Origin: Candidatus Kryptonium thompsonii
GTDB taxonomy: Bacteria; Bacteroidota; Ignavibacteria; Kryptoniales; Kryptoniaceae
Reading direction: 5' to 3'
DNA: 64,000 nucleotides
Assembly: GCA_001442925.1 (NCBI GenBank)
Contig: LDXX01000007.1
Location: forward strand, 1 to 64,000
In this document: positions 158-13,189 of the stretch, one piece after another
Layout: the number at the start of each line of letters is the position of its first letter
Position numbering within the stretch: position 1 is the first letter of the stretch
Notes under the pieces: model-generated
What the model was told of the DNA's origin: nothing
The model's input: only the letters and a program-made list of their open reading frames with translations
Databases searched by the model: none
Made by a program: the position numbers and the translations under genes

Positions 158-3100
158 ATGAAGGTAAAATTATTTACTGTCGCGTTGTTTTTAACGATAT
201 TCTTAACTGTCAATTCTTCTCTGCAATGTCAATCTATTAGCGGAGAATTAATGCTCAATCCGTTCCCGTCGCCTTATATTAATGACTGGCAAAGTAATCC
301 ATCTGCATTAGGAGTGCTAAAAATTTCAAATCCTTCTTCCTCCACAATTCAGATAAAACTCAGAGTTATCGTTGAACGAGGTAGAAGTGAGATTTTTAGA
401 ATTTTAACCAATCCAATTTCATTAACTGGAGCGCCTGTTCAGGTAATTGATAATACAAACATCGTGCGTCTTTCAGATGTTTCATTCAGAGATACGGGTT
501 ATAGAGACAAAGTTATGAAGACTGGAAGATTGCTTGAAGGGGAATACACAGTTTGTGTAAACATAGAAGATATGACAGGCAATGTTTTAGCAAGCAATAT
601 CTGTGCTAATTTTACAATTCTTTATCCAGATCCGCCGAGATTAATCGCACCTGTGGATAATGCAAATTTAGATCCAACAACTGCTTATCCTACATTTCAA
701 TGGACCCCTGTTGTTGTGCCATCTACTTATGAGGTAAAGTACACTTTAAAAATTGTCGAAGTAATGAGAGGGCAAACCCCAGCGCAGGCAATAAGTGCAA
801 ATATACCCGTTTATGAAAATAATCAAATCACAACTAATACTTTTGTTTATCCTATTGATGCACGAGAATTAGTAGCAGGTAAAACTTATGCTTGGCAAAT
901 TCAGGCGCTTGATCGGTTTGGTCTCCCACCAACTCAGAATGATGGTAAATCCGAGATTTTCACATTTACTAAAAGTGCTGTATCGGGCACAGGTAATCTT
1001 ACCGTTGTTTATCCTTTGAACAATGATACTATTCCCTGGAATTACTTTCCAATAATATTCAGATTTGATCCTTATTCAGATTCATACCGTAGATGTCGTT
1101 TTCAATTCCAGTTATTTGAAAATGGATCATCACTATATTCCTGGAACAGAGAATTAAGTTGGCCAGATGGTCCAGAGCGCTCCCAGGAACGGGTATTAGG
1201 TGTAGATATCACTCAAGAAGAATCCCAGCATTTATCGCTCAATAAGCGTCTTAATGAATCTCCGGCACCGCCAATGTTTGTGCGTGGAAGAAATTATAAC
1301 TGGACGGCTGATATAGAAATCAGGAGCGATGCAAGGACCGAAATCAGTGGAAGCTTAAGAGGCAATTTCAGTATTGGGATGGGGAAACCAATTTTAAGAC
1401 AACCTGCAAATAATGATACTCTACCTCCTGGGAGGATAAATTTATTGTTTAAGACTTCAGATGCCCCTACCAGAATTGCACCTCCTTTTTCAATTCTTCA
1501 GTCAGGAAGAGGAAAAACGCCAGCCACATTTTTTAATGGTGGAATTGATGAAAGATGGGTACTTGAAATCTCAAGGGATAATTTCCAAACCGTTGACACA
1601 ATTTTAGCCAATGAGAGATTAGGATCTGGAATTGATTTGAACGGTGCCATTGATAACCCTTCAAGTGTTCTTTCTCAACTTTACAAAGATGTAAATGTGC
1701 CTTACACAGCTAACGATACTGGCTGGTATTACTGGAGAGTTAAGTGGTTATCCGATCCAAACAATCTTAATAGCACTGCTTATCGCACGAGCGATGTTTA
1801 CAGATTTTATATCGGCACCCGTAGAGGCAGGGAGATTGTTTCGACACCTGGGGACTGCTTAGCTGATTGCGAAGCTCCGGAAATTTCAGATAGACGTCCT
1901 GTTACAACTGCAAGAGTTGGAAGTAGGCTTCGGATTGGTTTATTTACATTAACTGTAACCGAGATACGATGGACGGATGAAACAGCGAGCGGGAAAGGCA
2001 CCATAAATGTTCCTTTTCTCAGAGCGCCAATAAGAGTTGTTTTTAATAACATAAGGGTTAATGGAGATAATAAAATTTATGAAGGTGATGTTCATGCTGA
2101 ATATGACAGCGAGAGTGTAATTCCTTCTGCTTTTCGTTTGGCTGGTGAATTAGCTGGCATGAGCGATGATGAACTTCAAAACTTAAATACTTTTGTAAAT
2201 CAGACTTCCAGACTTGTAAGTGCTCTTGTAGATAGCACTCCAATTGGATTGCCGATAGGTTTAGATAGAATGGTAGAGGGAAGAAGATATACAATTGCAA
2301 TTGTCGGAATGAATTTCACTCCTCGACGGGCTGAATTAAATGCAATTATTGCATTGGAGTTTCCTGAACTGCATGGTTGGTTGGGTTTAGGTGCAAAAGA
2401 TATATGTTTTCATCCAAATGGTCTTAATATGGGGAGAGGAATGCTTTATTTACCAATTGATAGAGATTTAGTATGGTCAGATGATATAACAATTAGATTG
2501 AAGAGAACTCAAATCAGTTCTGATGCTGATTCAGGTACTTTTGTCAGGTGGGATTGTAATGGATTTGTTAGTTTAACTATAGCAGGCGAGATTATCTTTG
2601 GTCGTAATCTTCTTGTTGAAGATTTAGATGATGGTAACATTGGGTCAGATCAGATTAAAGCTGAATTTAGAACAACAGTAAGAAGACATGACAACTGGAT
2701 TGTCTCACTTACTTTCAATAAACCATTTCAGATTCGTGGTGTTGAAGGATTTGGGTTTAGAATAGAGGAAGCATGGTTGGATTTTTCAGACCGTGAGAAT
2801 CCAACTTCTTTTAACTTTCCCTCAAACTATAGATACACAGGCGATCAACTTTTGTGGAAAGGATTTTATTTAAAGACGGTAGAAATAAAACTTCCTGGGC
2901 AGTTTAGAACTTACGATTCTCCAACTCAGAGAGTAAGTTTTAGGGCAAATAATATGATTATTGATAGAACTGGTTTCACTGCAAATATTAGAGCTGAAAA
3001 TGTTTTGAGAAATGGAAATCTGGATGGCTGGAGCTTTTCGATTGATACAATTTATTTTGACATGGTTCAAACTTCATTCTCACGAGCCGGATTTACGGGT

Positions 3101-6100
3101 CAGATAGGGACTTCATTCACAGATTCTACTTTACTTTACAGGTCTGTTCTTAGTATGGATACGACAAGTAGGAATTTGAGCTATAATTTCACAATAGAGC
3201 CACCACGATCAGGAATAAATTTCAACTTGTGGCAGGCAACGCTTGAACTTGAACCAACTACTAATATTCGTGTAGATATTGACAGATCAGGATTTCAAGC
3301 GAGAGCGGTGTTGAATGGAAGATTAAACATAAATGCAGATTTGCCGCCGGTGGGTCGGACTAATTTTACGGGATTAAGATTTCAAGGGTTAACTTTCCAA
3401 ACAAGGCCTCCTTATATAGCTTGTCCTGATAGTTGCGTAAGATTTGGAAGCGCAAGTCCGCAAAAGTTTTTGGCAATGGAACAAAGTGATTTTTCACCCA
3501 ATGTTCCTAATCCACCAGATAGAGGTCGGACGGGTGGATTTCCAGTATCCATACAGAATGTTAGAGTTACTACAAGGGATAGCAGCGTACATTTAGCTGG
3601 AATAGAATTTGATTTAAGTTTGAATCTTACAGGGGAATCAAATACATTTTCAGCAGCGACAACCCTTGCGATTCTTGGTAGATTAAATCTCCCAAGAACC
3701 GGAAGGCAATTTTGGGAATTTGACAGAGTTGAATTTGATTCAGTAAGTATTTCTGGGGATGTGGGTATTGTACGATTAAATGGTGGGCTGAGGTTTTACA
3801 ATCAAGATCCTACTTACGGAAATGGTTTTAAAGGGTTCGTTCGTGCAACATTTCGTCCGACAATTAGTGCACAGGTTGCTGCACAGTTCGGCACCAAAGA
3901 TGGATATAGATATTGGTTTGTAGATGCTCAGGCGGTCTTTAGTCCAGGGATAACTATAGTTCCAGGGCTTGACATTTATGGTTTCGGAGGAGGTGCTTGG
4001 TATCACATGCGAAGGGCTTCACCTCTTCCTGATGCTGGGTCACTTAGAACTGCTGGAACAGCTGACACTACAGGGAGAGGGAGACCGGGTGGGACGCTAA
4101 GTGGTGTTACATACGTTCCAAATGACTCAATTGCTTTTGGATTTGAGGCCACTGTTATTTTCGGAAATACCGGCGGTGGTCAAACTTATAATGCAGATGC
4201 AACATTAGGTGCGGAATTTAATTCTGGAGGTGGCGTCAGTCAAATGTATCTTAGGGGAGATGTTTACTTCCTAACTCACATTAATAACAGAACTAATGTT
4301 CCAATTAGGGGTTCAGCAAGGATTAACTATAATTTTCGGGATACTATTTTTAGCGGAATATTTGATGTTAACATAAATTACCTTCGCATTCTCACGGGAG
4401 GAGGCACAGTTAATCTCTATATATCGCCATCCACCTGGCATATACACATTGGTACTCCAACGGAACCTATTAATGTTAATATTAATATCCCTGGCTTAGA
4501 TAGCACTGAATTCAGTGCTTATTTTATGGTAGGCATGAATTTACCTCCTGCTCCCGATTTACCTGATGATGTAAGAAGTATAACTGGAATAAGATATCCA
4601 GATCGAGATGTTACTGCACAAGAAAGAGGAAATGGCTTTGCTTTTGGGGCAAGGCTTAGAAGTAGAACAAATATAGGAAGGTTATCATTGGGACCTTTTA
4701 TTGCAAGATTGGATTTAGTAAAAACTGGATTTGATATGGCGTTTAAAAATTATCCGGGTTTAACATGCGAAGGTTTTCCACCAGGTACACCTATTGGTAT
4801 TAACGGTTGGTATGCATCTGGACAATTGTGGGCATATTTACAAGGTGAAATAGGTATTAATGTTGATGCATGGTTTGCCAGCGGAGTATTTAAAATAATT
4901 GATGTTGGAGTAGCTGCAGCACTTCGGGGAGGTTTGCCTAATCCTACCTGGTTAAGTGGTAATGTGGGTGGTTATTACAATATCCTTGGTGGACTTGTCA
5001 GAGGAAATTGTAGTTTTGAGTTTACTCTCGGAGAGAGATGCCGTATTCCAACTGAATCACCTTTAGCTGCTATTCGAATTCTGGAAAGTTTAGTTCCTGG
5101 AGACGGAGCAACAAATGTTGATCCATATATTAACCCCGTAGCAGCTTTTAACGCTGAAGTTTACACGCCATTTGAAATTGAGCAGGTTCGTGATGATGGG
5201 AGTAAAGTAACCCGGAGATTTAGATTTATTATTGAAAGATTTGAACTCAGGAGAGGCTCATCAACCGTACCCTGTACACAACAGATTGCTGATAATGGAC
5301 TTGGTGCTGCTCTCGTACCAATTGATATGTTAGAACCTAGAACAGATTATAATGTAACGATCAGGATTCGTGGTCAGGAATTTATTGATGGCCAGTGGAG
5401 AAATGCGCGCAAAGCTGATGGCTCAGAAATAATTGCTGAATTAAGTCATAATTTCACAACCGGGAATGCCCCTGATCATATTCCACCGGACGCCGTTGCT
5501 TATTCTTATCCATTTCATACTCAAAGATATTTTCTGATTGATGAGTGTAGATCAGGGGTTATTCAATTAAAGCAAGGAAGGCCTGATTTGTTTAATGTGA
5601 GTATTCCAGACTACGATATAAGCTATCATGTTAAATTTGTTCCAGTTGATGGGGGACCAATTCTTACTACTGAAGCAAGATATAATAATTCTACCCAAAC
5701 TATCTCATTCCAGATCCCCGCAGGACTCCAAACATCAACAACTTATGCTGCTCAATTAATCAGAAGGAAAACACCAAGACCTGGAACAGTGGCATCTGCC
5801 GTCTCTGAAAATTATTATGCTCAGAGACTCAGTAATATATTATTAAGAACGCGTACTTCAGTTGCCCCAGGAGTAGAGGTTCGACAAACGAGAATAGATG
5901 GAAGAATCACAACTGATCCCAATGAAAAAATTTATTATGTATTCTTCTTCAGAACCAGTCGATATAGAAATCTTCAGAGCAAAATTAATCAGTTAACATT
6001 TGTTTCAACTAGATGGGAATCTAGGGGTGGTGATTCTTACCAAGGCAACTCAGCATTAGTACTTTACCCAACATTTAATACACAAGAATTGTTTGATATT

Positions 6101-6856
6101 TTTGATGTGGAAGGACATACTTATCGGTTGGGTTTAACTACTTACAGAATTCCACCTTTAGTGAGAACACTTGATGGTCACCAAAATAATTGGTACAATA
6201 CTTTTGCGTATCCAGTTATTTACGAATACTATAATGAATTTAGATATCGTACAACACAAAGCTTAAGAGCTCAAGAACCATATGGAATTCCACCATTTTA
6301 TACTGTTACAATAACTTTTGCGGACCCTCCTTTGGATGAAAGTGAGTATTTACCACAGAGTCAATCTTCTTCAGCTCAATATGCATCGATAATGAGTTCA
6401 ATTGGAGTTAATCTCTGGAGTAGTTCTTTCAGTGGTGGTAGAAGAAGTAGTGGTTCCGGTGGTAGGATTGGTGGAAGTCGGGACCTCATTGTCGGTGGTA
6501 GAATTGGTGATGGTACTGCTGGTACTGCTGTAAGATCTACCAGTCAACAAGTGGAATTAGAAATGATAACCGACGCAATTGCGAGTGCAGATTATAGAAG
6601 ATTATGGGCTATGACATCAAATTACATTCTTCAAAATGGTCATCCAAATAGTCAACGACGCAATCAAAGCGCTTACCCTGAGCGATTGCGGTCACGGATG
6701 ATAGGATTTTTGAGATCGAGTTGGCGACATTTAGATAGAGGTTCATATAGGGTAGGTTTTAAATTTAATGCGATAAACTGCATAAATTCTGATCGTGTGC
6801 CAACTTATTATAAAGACTACAACTATGATTATCCAACTATAAATATTTATAGGTGA
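158..6856 (+). CDS. giant exported surface protein with FN3/Ig-like domains
   Basis: This is a 2232-residue protein with an N-terminal signal peptide (about residues 1-26, ending near LQCQS). The start is the ATG at 158, which has GGAGG eight bases upstream; an in-frame TTG at 140 lies before that Shine-Dalgarno and is unlikely. The first 160 residues resemble the N-terminal part of large Bacteroidota surface proteins (TANFOR-like, by memory only). FN3-like segments follow (from about 165, opening with PDPPRLIAPVDN). The middle is a long beta-rich stretch with many amphipathic strands. An Ig-like SbsA/Big_5 type segment starts near residue 1646 (LVPGDGATNVDPYINP). A Gly/Ser-rich linker lies near 2090-2130. 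No T9SS sorting domain is visible. It is followed with a 4-base gap by an FN3 protein and then an outer-membrane barrel, which suggests one exported complex. The function is unknown. Confidence 0.85.
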   Translation: MKVKLFTVALFLTIFLTVNSSLQCQSISGELMLNPFPSPYINDWQSNPSALGVLKISNPSSSTIQIKLRVIVERGRSEIFRILTNPISLTGAPVQVIDNTNIVRLSDVSFRDTGYRDKVMKTGRLLEGEYTVCVNIEDMTGNVLASNICANFTILYPDPPRLIAPVDNANLDPTTAYPTFQWTPVVVPSTYEVKYTLKIVEVMRGQTPAQAISANIPVYENNQITTNTFVYPIDARELVAGKTYAWQIQALDRFGLPPTQNDGKSEIFTFTKSAVSGTGNLTVVYPLNNDTIPWNYFPIIFRFDPYSDSYRRCRFQFQLFENGSSLYSWNRELSWPDGPERSQERVLGVDITQEESQHLSLNKRLNESPAPPMFVRGRNYNWTADIEIRSDARTEISGSLRGNFSIGMGKPILRQPANNDTLPPGRINLLFKTSDAPTRIAPPFSILQSGRGKTPATFFNGGIDERWVLEISRDNFQTVDTILANERLGSGIDLNGAIDNPSSVLSQLYKDVNVPYTANDTGWYYWRVKWLSDPNNLNSTAYRTSDVYRFYIGTRRGREIVSTPGDCLADCEAPEISDRRPVTTARVGSRLRIGLFTLTVTEIRWTDETASGKGTINVPFLRAPIRVVFNNIRVNGDNKIYEGDVHAEYDSESVIPSAFRLAGELAGMSDDELQNLNTFVNQTSRLVSALVDSTPIGLPIGLDRMVEGRRYTIAIVGMNFTPRRAELNAIIALEFPELHGWLGLGAKDICFHPNGLNMGRGMLYLPIDRDLVWSDDITIRLKRTQISSDADSGTFVRWDCNGFVSLTIAGEIIFGRNLLVEDLDDGNIGSDQIKAEFRTTVRRHDNWIVSLTFNKPFQIRGVEGFGFRIEEAWLDFSDRENPTSFNFPSNYRYTGDQLLWKGFYLKTVEIKLPGQFRTYDSPTQRVSFRANNMIIDRTGFTANIRAENVLRNGNLDGWSFSIDTIYFDMVQTSFSRAGFTGQIGTSFTDSTLLYRSVLSMDTTSRNLSYNFTIEPPRSGINFNLWQATLELEPTTNIRVDIDRSGFQARAVLNGRLNINADLPPVGRTNFTGLRFQGLTFQTRPPYIACPDSCVRFGSASPQKFLAMEQSDFSPNVPNPPDRGRTGGFPVSIQNVRVTTRDSSVHLAGIEFDLSLNLTGESNTFSAATTLAILGRLNLPRTGRQFWEFDRVEFDSVSISGDVGIVRLNGGLRFYNQDPTYGNGFKGFVRATFRPTISAQVAAQFGTKDGYRYWFVDAQAVFSPGITIVPGLDIYGFGGGAWYHMRRASPLPDAGSLRTAGTADTTGRGRPGGTLSGVTYVPNDSIAFGFEATVIFGNTGGGQTYNADATLGAEFNSGGGVSQMYLRGDVYFLTHINNRTNVPIRGSARINYNFRDTIFSGIFDVNINYLRILTGGGTVNLYISPSTWHIHIGTPTEPINVNINIPGLDSTEFSAYFMVGMNLPPAPDLPDDVRSITGIRYPDRDVTAQERGNGFAFGARLRSRTNIGRLSLGPFIARLDLVKTGFDMAFKNYPGLTCEGFPPGTPIGINGWYASGQLWAYLQGEIGINVDAWFASGVFKIIDVGVAAALRGGLPNPTWLSGNVGGYYNILGGLVRGNCSFEFTLGERCRIPTESPLAAIRILESLVPGDGATNVDPYINPVAAFNAEVYTPFEIEQVRDDGSKVTRRFRFIIERFELRRGSSTVPCTQQIADNGLGAALVPIDMLEPRTDYNVTIRIRGQEFIDGQWRNARKADGSEIIAELSHNFTTGNAPDHIPPDAVAYSYPFHTQRYFLIDECRSGVIQLKQGRPDLFNVSIPDYDISYHVKFVPVDGGPILTTEARYNNSTQTISFQIPAGLQTSTTYAAQLIRRKTPRPGTVASAVSENYYAQRLSNILLRTRTSVAPGVEVRQTRIDGRITTDPNEKIYYVFFFRTSRYRNLQSKINQLTFVSTRWESRGGDSYQGNSALVLYPTFNTQELFDIFDVEGHTYRLGLTTYRIPPLVRTLDGHQNNWYNTFAYPVIYEYYNEFRYRTTQSLRAQEPYGIPPFYTVTITFADPPLDESEYLPQSQSSSAQYASIMSSIGVNLWSSSFSGGRRSSGSGGRIGGSRDLIVGGRIGDGTAGTAVRSTSQQVELEMITDAIASADYRRLWAMTSNYILQNGHPNSQRRNQSAYPERLRSRMIGFLRSSWRHLDRGSYRVGFKFNAINCINSDRVPTYYKDYNYDYPTINIYR

Positions 6857-6860
6857 TAAA

Positions 6861-8960
6861 ATGGTGAAAAATACTTTAAAATTCATCTTTTCACTCATTC
6901 TTTCAGTGACATTTAATGTAGTCGCCCAACAAGGTAATCGGTCAATTGATTCAGTCAGGAATATATATGCAATTGCAAATGTTAAAAGTGATCAAATTAT
7001 AATTCGTTGGGCTCCGCCAAATCATATAGCATGGACAAGAGGGAATGTTTCGGGTTATAAAGTTATAAGATACAGGGTGAATCTTGAAGGGAGAAAACCA
7101 GTTGAAGCAAAACAGATCGGCAATGACACAATTAAACCATTCTCATTAGAGGAATGGAAATCAAAATTTCCACAGGATCATCCTTATGCACCAATCGCGG
7201 TGCAGGCGCTTTATGGGAAGCAGTTCAGGATTAGTGAACAGAATTTTGACATTGCAAATATTAGAACCTTATCACAGGAACAGGAACTTCGTTATTCATT
7301 TGCTTTATTTACAGCAGATATGGATGCACAGGTGGCTGAAGGTTTAGGTTTAAGAGTGGTTGATAAAAATTTTGAAAAGGATGAGCAATATTTATATGTA
7401 ATTATACCTTACGATGTAAGCCAAATGGATACAGGTTACGTTTTTGTCGATACGAGGCTTTTAACTCCAGTTCCAAAAGCTCCAAATCTTGAAAAGAACG
7501 AAATGGAAAATCAGATTGAATTGCGATGGAGCGTTGAAAATATGCAGAATGTTTTTACTGCTTTCTGGATTGAGAGAAGTGAAGATGGCAAAAACTGGGT
7601 ACGGCTAAATAAAACTCCTTACATTCAGGCGACTCAGAATCCAAATCAGCAGGATAAATATATTTATTACACAGATACTACCATCTCAAGAAATTATTTG
7701 CCATACAAATATCGTTTGATAGGTATCACTCCTTTTGCTGAGTTAAGCGAACCGTCAGAAGTAATTGAGGCAATGGGAAGAGACAGAACAGCTCCACAGC
7801 CACCTGTAATTACTTCTATAAAAGATGTTAAAGGTAAAATAGAGCTTGAGTGGAAAATAGAAAACCCACCTTCTGATTTGAAAGGTTTTATAATTGGTAG
7901 AAGCAATTCAATTGGAGGAGAGTATAAACCACTTACGACACAAATACTTGAACCTTCTGTTAGAAAATTTACAGATAATAGTCCTGATCCTATAAATGAA
8001 AATTATTATGTAGTTTTTGCTTTGGACACAGCAAATAATGCAAGTGTTTCAATGCCAGCGTATGGATTTCTTATTGATTCCATCCCACCAGCTAAACCGG
8101 TTGGATTAACTGGAAGTATTGATACTCTTGGTATAGTTAGGCTTCACTGGCCCTTAGGAAAAGATCCTGATATCACAGGCTACAGAGTATATTTTGCTAA
8201 TGCTATTGATCACGAATTTAGCAATTTAACTCCATATCCCATTCAAGATACTGTGTTTGTTGATACGCTAAATCTTAATACCCTTACGAAGGAAATATAT
8301 TATCAGATCGTTGCGGTTGACAGAAACTTTAACCACAGTGCTCGCTCGGACATTTTAAAATTAGTAAAGCCTGATATAGTTCCCCCTGTACCACCACTCA
8401 TTTCAGATTATCTTGTAACGGATTCGTCTGTTGTTTTAGATATTATTCCGAGTTTAAGTGATGATGTAGCTAAATATATTATATTCAGAAAAGGAGGTAA
8501 AGAAAAAGATTGGACTCAAATTCTTGTTCTAAGCAGAGAATCACTAAATAAAAAGAAAATTATCGATAACACTGTAACTGGTCCTAATTTTTATTCATAT
8601 GCACTTCAAGCAGTAGATAGTTCAGGAAATAAGTCAGAATTATCTCCATCAGTCGGTGTTAAGGTAAATCAAAGTATTAAAGTTTTTCAAATTGAAGGAT
8701 TAAATGCCAGTTACGATAGTCAGAAAAAGGCTATCATACTTACCTGGATGAAGCCGAAGAGTGAGGTGGAATATTATGTAATTTACAAAAGGGTTAACGG
8801 TGGGAAATTTGAGAATTTTGCTTCAGTCGGTCCAGATAAAGTCAATTTCACAGATACTGAGTTAATATATCAGGGTGAGTATCAATATGGAATTAAGGCG
8901 GTATTCAAGAATAATGAGTCTCCGATATCTTTCAGTCCAATTGTTTTAGTCAAATATTAA
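6861..8960 (+). CDS. exported fibronectin type III repeat protein
   Basis: A 699-residue protein with a signal peptide (about 1-22, ending VVAQQ). It contains at least five FN3-like units of roughly 100 residues, beginning near residues 206, 310, 409, 507 and 612. Each starts with a proline-rich linker such as PPQPPVIT or PPAKPVGL and has the Trp and Tyr pattern of the fold. A divergent N-terminal unit (about 30-200) precedes them. The ATG is four bases after the upstream stop, and AGGTGA overlapping that stop can serve as Shine-Dalgarno, so the two genes are probably translationally coupled. No sorting domain is seen. FN3 repeats are commonly binding or spacer modules. The likely role is a periplasmic or surface partner of its two neighbours; the specific function is unknown. 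Confidence 0.85.
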   Translation: MVKNTLKFIFSLILSVTFNVVAQQGNRSIDSVRNIYAIANVKSDQIIIRWAPPNHIAWTRGNVSGYKVIRYRVNLEGRKPVEAKQIGNDTIKPFSLEEWKSKFPQDHPYAPIAVQALYGKQFRISEQNFDIANIRTLSQEQELRYSFALFTADMDAQVAEGLGLRVVDKNFEKDEQYLYVIIPYDVSQMDTGYVFVDTRLLTPVPKAPNLEKNEMENQIELRWSVENMQNVFTAFWIERSEDGKNWVRLNKTPYIQATQNPNQQDKYIYYTDTTISRNYLPYKYRLIGITPFAELSEPSEVIEAMGRDRTAPQPPVITSIKDVKGKIELEWKIENPPSDLKGFIIGRSNSIGGEYKPLTTQILEPSVRKFTDNSPDPINENYYVVFALDTANNASVSMPAYGFLIDSIPPAKPVGLTGSIDTLGIVRLHWPLGKDPDITGYRVYFANAIDHEFSNLTPYPIQDTVFVDTLNLNTLTKEIYYQIVAVDRNFNHSARSDILKLVKPDIVPPVPPLISDYLVTDSSVVLDIIPSLSDDVAKYIIFRKGGKEKDWTQILVLSRESLNKKKIIDNTVTGPNFYSYALQAVDSSGNKSELSPSVGVKVNQSIKVFQIEGLNASYDSQKKAIILTWMKPKSEVEYYVIYKRVNGGKFENFASVGPDKVNFTDTELIYQGEYQYGIKAVFKNNESPISFSPIVLVKY

Positions 8961-8977
8961 AAAAATCAGAGGGATCT

Positions 8978-10960
8978 ATGAGGTTATATATCATATTTAT
9001 TTCAGTTTTTATTTTGATGTTTAGTATTTCTCTGTTTGCACAACAAGGCATTTGGGGTGAGGGTTATAATTTCATTAAAAGGAATTTCAAAATTAGTGGT
9101 GAGATAGGAGGGTACGGAGAATATTATACAACGACCAGTGAATATGCCAGAAGACCTAACAATACAGGAAGACTATTTTTCAGACCGACAATTAGTTTAT
9201 TTAATTTGATTCAAATTCCATTTGAATTTTTAATTTCCACTGAAGGAAGTTCCGCAAGGCAGGATATTAATCAATTTGGAATAAATCCGAGGTGGTCGTG
9301 GGGTTCATTACATCTGGGAGATTTCAGCACTGAATACTCAAAATATACATTGAGTGGTATTCTAATTCGTGGAGGTGGCATTGATATAAATCCGGGAAAT
9401 TTTCGCTTTTCAACTGCTGCTGGTTTCACAAAACGGGCAGTTCCCGGAGGTGCTCAGGATGGTAGTTTTAAGAGATTTCTTTTTGCGTCAAAAATAGGGT
9501 ATGGGAATGAGTCTGTAAGTTATCTTGATTTAATCTTTGTAAGGGCGAAGGATGAGATATCTTCATTAGATCAAAGCCATAAAAGTATAACAGTTCTATC
9601 ACCAAATGGGAGGGATGTACTTAATATCGGTTCGGTTGTAACAATCACTTGGAATTCATATAATGTTGGTGGTGCAGTTAAAATTGAAATATCTAGGGAT
9701 GGGGGAGCAACGTTTGAGCTAATAGCAGATAAACAGCCAAATGTTGGTTTTTATAATTGGACTGTAACAGGGCCTGCAACTTTTGAAGCGTTGATCAAGA
9801 TATCAAGTGTTGAGGATTCAACGGTATTTGATTTAAGCGATAACTTCTTTTCAATTGGTTCTGGGGTACAGACCACAATTGTTCCCAACACAAATAATAT
9901 CGTAAATCAGAATGCAGTTGTACCTCAGGAAAATTTAGTTTTGGGAGCAAAGGGGAGAATATCTTTTCTGAGGAGTGCAATTAGTTTTGATTTTGATGCA
10001 GCTGGAAGTGTTTACACAAGAGATTTAAGAGCTCAAGAAATTAATATTGATTCATCAAAAATTCCTTCATTCGTTTTAAAGATTTATAAACCGCGCATAA
10101 GCACTAATTATGATTTTGCATTTAATACTGCACTGGGTCTCAGATTTAGTTCATTCAGTACAAAAGTTGGTTATCGAAGAATTCAACCAGGATATAATTC
10201 TTTAGGGACGTCTTATCTTCATAATGACATACAGGAAATTTCTGTAATGAACAATATCACAATATTAAATGTTAATTTGAATTTGTCCTATATTAGACAA
10301 ACTGATAATTTGCTTAAACAAAAATCATTTACCACTGCTCGAAACATTATCACAGCAGGGATCAATGCCAGAATTTTAAAAGGCTGGACAACAACTATTT
10401 CAGGGAATGTTCTTTTGATGACCAATAATTCAAAAAAGGATTCAACGAGGATTAATTTTAGGAGTTATGTTCTGAATCTTAATAACAATTTTGTTTTTGA
10501 CCCTAAAGGATTTACTAAAGGACTTATTAGATCTATAAATTTGAATTATTCACTACAGAGTTCAGATAATAGATCTTACTTACTAAAGAATAACACCACT
10601 TTGGTGCACTCTGTCAATTTAGGGTTGAGTTTTGTAATAAGCAATGAGTTAAGTTCCAGTTTCAGTGCTGGTTTTGTGAGTTCGAGTATTTTTGATACAG
10701 TAAAATCATTCACACATAACTATACATTGAGTTTTCAGCATAAAGCATTTTCAAACAAGCTCAATTCATCGTTGAGTTTATCTTCAGCATTTAACAATGC
10801 AAACAAGTCATATCGTGCAAGCGTCAGCAGTGGTTATAACATAGCTGATTCGGATAATATTACATTATCTATTTCATTTTTGAGGTTTGATGGTAAGACT
10901 TTCAGAGGTGGAAGTTTTAATGAGTTGTTAACTTATTTAACTTATAATCATCGATTTTGA
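8978..10960 (+). CDS. outer-membrane beta-barrel with inserted Kre9/KNH-like Ig domain
   Basis: A 660-residue protein with a signal peptide (about 1-22, ending SLFAQQ). Most of it shows alternating hydrophobic/polar strands ending in aromatic residues, typical of an outer-membrane barrel, and it ends in Phe (YNHRF), as barrel proteins usually do. Residues about 202-292 form a separate Ig-like domain (ITVLSPNGRDVLNIGS ... VTITWNSY ... IEISRDGG) that resembles the Kre9/KNH family. The gene is 17 bases after the FN3 gene, with GAGGGA upstream of the ATG. It closes the three-gene cluster and could be the outer-membrane anchor or channel for the two exported proteins (inference). Confidence 0.8.
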   Translation: MRLYIIFISVFILMFSISLFAQQGIWGEGYNFIKRNFKISGEIGGYGEYYTTTSEYARRPNNTGRLFFRPTISLFNLIQIPFEFLISTEGSSARQDINQFGINPRWSWGSLHLGDFSTEYSKYTLSGILIRGGGIDINPGNFRFSTAAGFTKRAVPGGAQDGSFKRFLFASKIGYGNESVSYLDLIFVRAKDEISSLDQSHKSITVLSPNGRDVLNIGSVVTITWNSYNVGGAVKIEISRDGGATFELIADKQPNVGFYNWTVTGPATFEALIKISSVEDSTVFDLSDNFFSIGSGVQTTIVPNTNNIVNQNAVVPQENLVLGAKGRISFLRSAISFDFDAAGSVYTRDLRAQEINIDSSKIPSFVLKIYKPRISTNYDFAFNTALGLRFSSFSTKVGYRRIQPGYNSLGTSYLHNDIQEISVMNNITILNVNLNLSYIRQTDNLLKQKSFTTARNIITAGINARILKGWTTTISGNVLLMTNNSKKDSTRINFRSYVLNLNNNFVFDPKGFTKGLIRSINLNYSLQSSDNRSYLLKNNTTLVHSVNLGLSFVISNELSSSFSAGFVSSSIFDTVKSFTHNYTLSFQHKAFSNKLNSSLSLSSAFNNANKSYRASVSSGYNIADSDNITLSISFLRFDGKTFRGGSFNELLTYLTYNHRF

Positions 10961-11047: not shown

Positions 11048-13189
11048 ATGATTAGAAAAATTCTATCGTCACTTTTCTTCATTTTTTGGGCTTTCAATTT
11101 TTTATTTTCACAAAGTCCAGAGTGGGTTAATTTTACTGCAAATAAAAATATTCTTTCGCTTACCGTTGAGGGAAATTACATTTGGGTTGGGACTAAAGGA
11201 GGGTTAGTTAGGTTAAATATGCTCACGGGTGAGAAAGTTAACTATAACAGTGCAAATTCAGGTTTGCCAGATAATTATGTTCATGCGATAGCGATAGATG
11301 GGGAGGGTAACAAATGGATTGGGACAGATAGAGGTGGATTAGCAAAGTTTGATGGGGTAAATTGGACTGTTTATGACACATTAAATTCAGGTTTGCCAGA
11401 TAATTATGTTCATGCAATAGTGATAGATGGTCAAGGAAACAAATGGATTGGGACAGCTGGAGGATTAGCGAAGTTTGATGGAGTAAATTGGACTATTTAT
11501 AACACTTCAAATTCAAATCTGCCGGTTAATTGGATTTTTACGATAGTGATAGATGCTCAAGGAAACAAATGGATTGGGACTTGGGGAGGGGGATTAGTGA
11601 AGTTTGATGGATTAAGTTGGAATATTTATAACTCATCAAATTCAAAACTGCCAGATAATTTGATTCATACAATAGTGATAGATGACCAAGGAAACAAATG
11701 GGTTGGAACAGGTAGAGGGTTAGTGAAGTTTGATGGATTAAGTTGGACTGTTTATAATACTTCAAATTCAGGTCTGCCAAGTAATGATGTTTGGGCTATA
11801 GCGATAGATGGGCAGGGTAATAAATGGATTGGGACATATGGAGGGGGGTTAGCGAAGTTTGATGGAACAAATTGGGTTGTCTATGACACATCAAACTCAG
11901 GTCTGCCGGATGATCATGTTACTGCTATAGCCATAGATTCACAAGGAAACAAGTGGATTGGGACAGATGGAAGAGGATTAGCTAAGTTTGATGGAGTAAA
12001 TTGGACTGTTTATAAAATTTCGAACTCAGGTCTTCCGGGTGATTGGGTTTCTGCGGTAGCGATAGATGGACAGGGAAACAAATGGATTGGGACGTATGGG
12101 GAAGGATTAGCGAGGTTTGATGGGGCAAAGTGGACTGTTTATAACACATCAAATTCAGGTCTTCCAGATGATTGGATTAATGCAATAGCTATAGATTCCC
12201 AAGGAAATAAATGGATTGGGACATGGTGGGGTGGATTAGCGAAGTTTGATGGAACAAATTGGACTGTTTATAATTTTTCAAATTCAGGTCTGCCGGGTGA
12301 TTATGTTCGTGCAATAGCAATAGATTCCCAAGGCAACAAATGGGTTGGAACAGCTGGAGGGGGGTTAGCGAAGTTTGATGGTGTAAATTGGACTGTTTAT
12401 AATACACCATTTAATTATGTTACTGCAATAGCAATAGATTCACAAGGGAACAAATGGATTGGGTCAGAAGGAGGAGGTTTAGCAAAGTTTGATGGAGTAA
12501 ATTGGGCTGTTTATAATACTTTAAACTCAGGTCTTCCAGATAATTGGATTAATGCAATAGTGATAGATGGACAAGGGAATAAATGGATTGGGACATGGTG
12601 GGGAGGGTTAGTGAAGTTTGATGGAGTAAATTGGACAGTTTATAACAGATCAAATTCAGGTCTGCCAAATGATTATGTTCATGCAGTAGTGATAGATGGA
12701 CAAGGGAACAAATGGGTTGGGACAGCTGGAGGAGGGTTAGTGAAGTTTGATAGTGTAAATTGGACTGTTTATAGTTCATCAAATTCAGGCCTACCATATA
12801 ATTATGTTTGTGCGATAGCAATAGATAGACAAGGGAACAAATGGATTGGGACAGCTGGAGGATTATCAGTGTATAAAGAGGGTGGGGTAATACTTGATGT
12901 TTATGAGAAAGGAGAGATAATACCGAGGGAGTTTTCGCTTTATCAAAATTATCCGAATCCATTTAATCCTGCGACTGTGATTGAGTTTGATATAGCCGAG
13001 GTTACGGATGTTAGGCTTGAGGTATATGATGTTTTGGGTAGGAAGGTTAAGACAATTCTTGATGAGAGGTTGGAGGTTGGGAGGTATCGTGTCAGGTTTG
13101 ATGGTGGGGATTTGGTGAGTGGGGTGTATTTTTACAGGTTGATCACGGATAAATTTTCAAGTGTAAAGAAGATGGTGTTGGTGAAGTGA
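11048..13189 (+). CDS. T9SS-exported propeller protein with 13 tandem repeats
   Basis: A 713-residue secreted protein. It has a signal peptide (about 1-22, ending FLFSQS) and a divergent first repeat. Thirteen copies follow of a 41-43 residue unit with the core [20 protein letters not shown] and the linker NSGLP, like the repeats of two-component-regulator propellers. Residues about 625-713 are a type IX sorting domain ([19 protein letters not shown] ... VYFYRL ... KKMVLVK). Repeat 10 is short and lacks the NSGLP linker. AAGGAGA lies upstream of the ATG. There are no signalling domains, so it is a stand-alone surface propeller, not a sensor kinase. The ligand is unknown. A broken paralogue lies just downstream. 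Confidence 0.92.
11255..12885 (+). repeat. tandem coding repeats, about 126-129 bp each
   Basis: The 13 protein repeats are also strongly alike at DNA level, with recurring blocks such as AACAAATGGATTGGGACA and AAGTTTGATGG. The units are close enough for slippage or recombination. Repeat 10 (around 12402-12510) has lost about five codons. The high identity also creates long antisense open frames in this stretch, which are artefacts. Confidence 0.9.

Follow-up and report, generated by a model that had tools for sequence, protein, structure and literature searches.

Three consecutive plus-strand genes at the start of the window (the whole stretch of DNA analysed, 64 kb from the start of contig C7 in a 2.59-Mb, 98% complete genome) encode a giant protein, an FN3 protein (FN3P) and a barrel. 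What such a trio does, and by which route its giant reaches the cell exterior, is the question raised by this locus. The preliminary description had proposed a tight cluster of exported proteins ending in a likely outer-membrane barrel with an Ig insert, and this account holds in each respect: the intergenic gaps of 4 and 17 bases are confirmed by the ORF coordinates, all three N-termini resemble signal peptides by simple hydropathy, the second protein matches Pfam fn3, and an AlphaFold2 model predicts a 25-strand barrel with an Ig-like insert for the third. The features are as follows.

158..6856, plus strand: giant exported protein, 2232 aa, ATG at 158; TANFOR-type N-domain, Ig-like segments, middle module M, Big_5 and variable C-terminus, in that order
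215..1057, plus strand: N-domain, aa about 20-300, TANFOR-like (hhalign probability 99.6, E 1.2e-24, against 11 TIGR02542-positive sequences); candidate barrel-docking domain
1850..5062, plus strand: module M, aa about 565-1635, about 1035 aa, all-beta, amphipathic strands
5081..5365, plus strand: Big_5 Ig-like domain of the giant (Pfam E 1.4e-5)
5366..6853, plus strand: variable C-terminal region of the giant; zero Pfam matches in the final 400 aa
6861..8960, plus strand: FN3P, 699 aa, co-inherited with M (Pfam fn3 E 5e-8)
8978..10960, plus strand: predicted outer-membrane barrel, 660 aa, about 25 strands, co-inherited with the N-domain (structure prediction and sequence comparison)
9584..9856, plus strand: Ig-like insert of the barrel, about aa 203-293, between predicted strands 8 and 9

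Base 1 is the contig end, so the gene content 5' of the giant is not visible. On the other side, 87 bases after the barrel, begins a gene (11048-13189) outside the conserved trio; its 713-aa product, partly similar to PorZ, combines 13 Reg_prop stretches with a T9SS type A tail.

Domains of the giant and fold of the barrel

The first 300 residues of the giant are homologous to the TANFOR domain, in diverged form. TANFOR stands at the N-terminus of Bacteroidetes polymorphic toxins of a class described in 2020 (Jana, Salomon and Bosis, PMC7073777). The window giant itself gives no TIGR02542 match up to E 10 and thus lies outside the curated cut-off of that model. In addition to the hhalign comparison listed above, a clade profile of the N-domain reaches a profile-comparison probability of 99.9 against TANFOR, and 45 of 63 related N-domains match TIGR02542 at E 0.01 or better; the one relative whose score was inspected in full reaches 39.6 bits, below the 67-bit cut-off.

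The window giant shares with TANFOR toxins, as far as these are set out in the main text of PMC7073777, a homologous N-domain, a large Sec-type exported protein, a variable C-terminus and Fn3 enrichment nearby. It differs in its C-terminal end and in its neighbours. The giants' C-termini are not conserved between loci, and Pfam matches no domain in the C-terminus of any of 48 trio giants, so that none ends in a recognisable toxin. No immunity gene lies directly downstream of the window giant, where FN3P follows 4 bases on. A toxin role for the window giant is rejected on these two grounds, no recognised toxin domain and no immunity gene; its C-terminus may still hold a toxin domain of an undescribed kind. 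A phmmer search of the giant against PDB sequences returns no match. The trio also has a dedicated barrel plus FN3P, in contrast to the toxins as described in that main text, which makes no mention of a barrel or porin (PMC7073777). No description of a barrel partner of TANFOR proteins was found in the open-licence literature.

Module M, with which the giant ends in three loci (L075, L076, L099), has strongly two-faced strands (score 2.47 vs a shuffled mean of 1.43 and a shuffled maximum of 1.99). Its model has a pTM of 0.48, and the best Foldseek matches are to LptD (E 2e-6), with ApoB also among the matches, all at TM-scores of 0.23 or less. No fold is assigned to M, because the LptD, ApoB and porin matches combine low TM-scores with high rmsd. 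The all-beta, two-faced character of M and the LptD and ApoB matches would fit a conduit or groove of amphipathic beta strands that carries lipid or glycan, with the barrel as its outer-membrane gate and a non-protein substrate. The poor TM-scores and pTM weigh against such a conduit, as do the 18 of 48 loci in which N-domain and barrel are kept with M-less bodies, and we regard it as improbable.

The barrel model (mean pLDDT 86.4) begins its barrel at about aa 37. The Ig-like insert, with weak, sub-cut-off Kre9_KNH and Big_7 matches, is a lineage feature, common in alignment A1 to the window, L086 and L087 only. No Pfam or NCBIfam family was found for the barrel, its relatives giving a few weak single-member matches, and phmmer against PDB sequences finds no match. 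The best structural match is MtrB (6r2q; Z 20.8, 444 residues aligned, rmsd 5.1); the model also resembles SprA, at Z 16.7, and ushers of the FimD type, at Z 16.1, all of them wide barrels. Ordinary porins score comparably to SprA and FimD (Z about 15-17), so the fold is uninformative about function.

Despite its structural match to MtrB of the Mtr complex, the trio barrel has no Pfam family match, and no cytochrome family is recognised among its partners; the likeness may reflect a common wide-barrel form. The chaperone-usher proteins FimD and PapC resemble the trio in having a wide barrel of similar size and Ig-type modules. The prediction here is 25 strands, next to 24 in usher translocation barrels, and porins reach Z 16-17 where FimD reaches 16.1. 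The trio barrel has no Pfam usher match, and no pilin or usher-chaperone family is recognised. Nor does the barrel match a Pfam POTRA or Omp85-type family of the kind that marks two-partner secretion (FhaC/Omp85). An ordinary two-partner or usher system is rejected for lack of a family match.

Conservation and co-inheritance of the trio

The preliminary description made its reading depend on the same trio recurring in other genomes, and the trio is present across the phylum. A contig scan with the barrel yielded 290 relatives; among the best 80 of these, hosts include Ignavibacteria- and Kapabacteria-type MAGs, Spirosoma, Dyadobacter, Flavobacterium, Hymenobacter and Sphingobacterium, and most of the 80 loci have the three genes adjacent. 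By strict criteria the trio is complete in 71 of 123 loci examined, reduced to 48 non-redundant loci by dropping barrels more than 80% identical. Gene order in these 48 is barrel-giant-FN3P in 37, giant-FN3P-barrel (the window order) in seven and giant-barrel-FN3P in four. A chance gene cluster is rejected in view of this conservation. The suggestion of an unstudied surface assembly was a fair guess as regards a conserved trio, but the TANFOR-like N-domain belongs to a class published in 2020.

One genome of the window's class (G032, L069-L074) has six loci with at least two trio genes, four of them complete, with giants of up to 3741 aa. In some Spirosoma- and Dyadobacter-type loci (L127, L137, L141, L156) giant and FN3P are separated by a further gene, for a product of 236-379 aa. 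A contig labelled Armatimonadetes (L163, JADZEY010000060.1) also has the trio, and equals a G032 contig (L069) in length and gene coordinates; since G032 is placed in the window's class, the public label is probably wrong.

The window's own copy was probably acquired horizontally, judging from its distribution and sequence divergence. In a class-level scan of 41 genomes, the window's own included, the trio occurs in several families; giant and barrel are absent from all six genus mates, four of which are at least 93% complete. Dxr of these genus mates is 85-90% identical to that of the window genome. In G264, a member of another family, Dxr is 60% identical, whereas giant, FN3P and barrel are 65.6%, 73.7% and 77.5% identical. 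Vertical inheritance within the genus is unlikely given both the absence from genus mates and this excess over Dxr; loss in the genus mates is a less simple alternative. The trio has a GC3 of about 0.25, vs 0.32 +- 0.03 in 48 other ORFs.

N-domain and barrel occur together. Their presence is concordant in 296/296 genomes of a phylum sample (69 with both, 227 with neither), at thresholds of at least 80 bits for the N-domain and at least 150 bits for the barrel and with one 102-bit fusion barrel added by hand; leaving this fusion out gives 68 genomes with both and one discordant. The independent TANFOR model TIGR02542 matches in eight of the 296 genomes, and all eight have a trio-type barrel. 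At the gene level, with bit thresholds that, like those for co-occurrence, were set after inspecting the lists, an N-domain accompanies 70 of 82 trio-type barrels at a distance of up to 15 kb (same contig and strand) and is at most 1 kb downstream for 53 of the 82; the other 12 barrels have none in the 15-kb range. Conversely, 42 of the 113 strong N-domain rows lack a trio-type barrel within 16 kb; several of these adjoin a fused or second-type barrel, and others are orphans. Six loci (L179-L184) encode N-domain and barrel in one frame.

Pairwise identities point to inheritance in two units, one of N-domain plus barrel and the other of M plus FN3P. Across the 48 loci, the partial r is 0.87 for barrel and N-domain and -0.03 for barrel and FN3P. 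In the 27 loci with M, it is 0.80 for barrel and N-domain (bootstrap range 0.62-0.91) and 0.83 for M and FN3P (0.71-0.90), the other pairs lying between -0.19 and 0.24. FN3P identity tracks the presence of M (0/2000 label shuffles reach the observed value), and barrel and N-domain identity do not (196/2000 and 179/2000). Gene adjacency and ancestry may account for part of the signal. Adjacency alone is insufficient, because barrel and N-domain still correlate at 0.71 in those pairs where one or both loci have another gene order. Alignment A5 uses 67 of 78 barrels and alignment A7 62 of 68 N-domain pieces, near-duplicates and short or ragged ends having been omitted by eye.

Where M is missing, the N-domain-barrel pair accompanies bodies of quite another kind. 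In L089, for instance, barrel and N-domain are each 54% identical to those of the window, with no M match and a weak FN3P match at 22%. Since other bodies are carried by N-domain and barrel in other lineages, the constant unit would be barrel plus N-domain, with an exchangeable body.

A paralogous cluster (G000:C8 L169:6621-10791, minus strand; also L171, L172, L173, L176, L177, L178) mostly adjoins dxr- and rseP-like genes. One of its proteins, of 356-397 aa, resembles the N-domain by profile in all seven loci except L176, and usually has a protein of 230-360 aa with it, identified as FecR in 2/2 cases tested. The other members are barrel-like, at 788-915 aa, or CHASE2 plus cyclase proteins (in 2/2 cases tested), at 669-860 aa. 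This cluster may be an outer-membrane-linked signalling unit. By extension, the N-domain-barrel pair could be a sensing or scaffold unit and the trio a receptor instead of an exporter, given that an N-domain-like protein, FecR, the barrel-like protein and a CHASE2-type protein follow one another in this order in the window's own genome and in other loci. The window trio has no cyclase or FecR protein, however, and giant C-termini vary as expected of cargo; we give a receptor only a slim chance.

The T9SS question

As the preliminary description stated, the trio is free of T9SS domains: no C-terminal sorting-domain tail was found in giant, FN3P or barrel, so by this feature none of them classes as T9SS cargo. 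The further claim that T9SS cargo genes flank the trio is borne out on one side, where the next downstream gene (11048-13189) carries the type A tail; the other side is the contig end. One more tail lies at about 44.9 kb, and two tails in 64 kb vs 48 in the 2.59-Mb genome is roughly chance expectation. The argument from flanking cargo is weak for this locus.

T9SS export of TANFOR proteins has been put forward as a hypothesis, and T9SS cargo is reported to be enriched near TANFOR genes (both in the main text of PMC7073777). On such a reading T9SS exports the giant by a signal that escapes recognition, and an SprF/PorP-like barrel receives and anchors it after T9SS. There are precedents: SprB-SprF and PG1035-PorP are described as surface protein/barrel pairs (PMC9143113), and T9SS anchoring of this type likewise joins a large surface protein to its own outer-membrane barrel (PMC9143113, PMC12618676). 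In Flavobacterium-type loci, a gene with a T9SS-like C-terminal end, judged by eye, lies upstream. SprA is found in 61/61 trio genomes of the phylum sample (counted by eye) vs 229/296 overall; since every one of these 61 has SprA, the trio may depend on T9SS, though ancestry alone may explain the association.

Unlike SprB-SprF and PorP systems, the trio has a giant without a T9SS tail, another gene set and a barrel unmatched by PorP/SprF models: NCBIfam gives no such match for the window barrel to E 1, nor for 19 barrels to E 0.1. Locus-based checks of 14 genomes found SprA in 13. The remaining one, Sphingobacterium puteale, carries the trio, lacks SprA and has a single T9SS tail, vs 50-98 tails in three compared genomes. 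The presence of the trio in a genome without SprA is a further difference from the TANFOR toxins as published. In Sphingobacterium the barrel occurs in 16 of 93 genomes, and an N-domain gene adjoins it in all 10 loci examined. Sphingobacterium puteale, the one trio genome tested for T9SS absence, suggests that T9SS is probably not required; a T9SS substrate with SprF/PorP-like anchoring seems to us rather unlikely.

A candidate outer-membrane route for giant proteins

The barrel is best read as an outer-membrane partner dedicated to TANFOR-type giants, serving as their pore or anchor. That the whole trio forms a dedicated display or export system for such giants, with M and FN3P as the passenger unit, has in our estimate close to an even chance. 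Giant, FN3P and barrel would cross the inner membrane by Sec, and the barrel would insert in the outer membrane. The N-domain of the giant would then dock on the periplasmic side of the barrel, a position suggested by fusions in which the N-domain is N-terminal to the barrel. The remainder of the giant might be held in the wide barrel or threaded through it to the outside, with FN3P binding and supporting the M part.

In other lineages, N-domain and barrel would carry other bodies, perhaps toxins. In four Flavobacterium-type loci (L194, L196, L197, L198), a TANFOR giant follows the barrel directly and has small genes behind it, FN3P being absent, and one giant of this type has a weakly TNT-like C-terminus, below cut-off. 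These loci suggest that TANFOR proteins with toxins, too, may use the barrel. The window trio, lacking a recognisable toxin, probably serves as a surface structure. The broader proposal, that TANFOR giants, toxins included, use a dedicated T9SS-independent outer-membrane pathway in which a wide barrel is paired with its own docking domain at the N-terminus of exchangeable passengers, is put forward tentatively, as less likely than not.

These readings have concrete consequences. The two-unit pattern predicts binding partners, N-domain with barrel and M with FN3P. Sphingobacterium, with one SprA-free trio genome, is the place where the T9SS question becomes testable. The barrel, co-occurring with the N-domain in 69/69 genomes, is a concrete candidate for the export partner of TANFOR proteins. 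The trio is probably a little-studied route by which large proteins, possibly including some antibacterial toxins, reach the cell surface across Bacteroidota; if the dedicated pathway is real, it would be a protein export route of this phylum not yet described.
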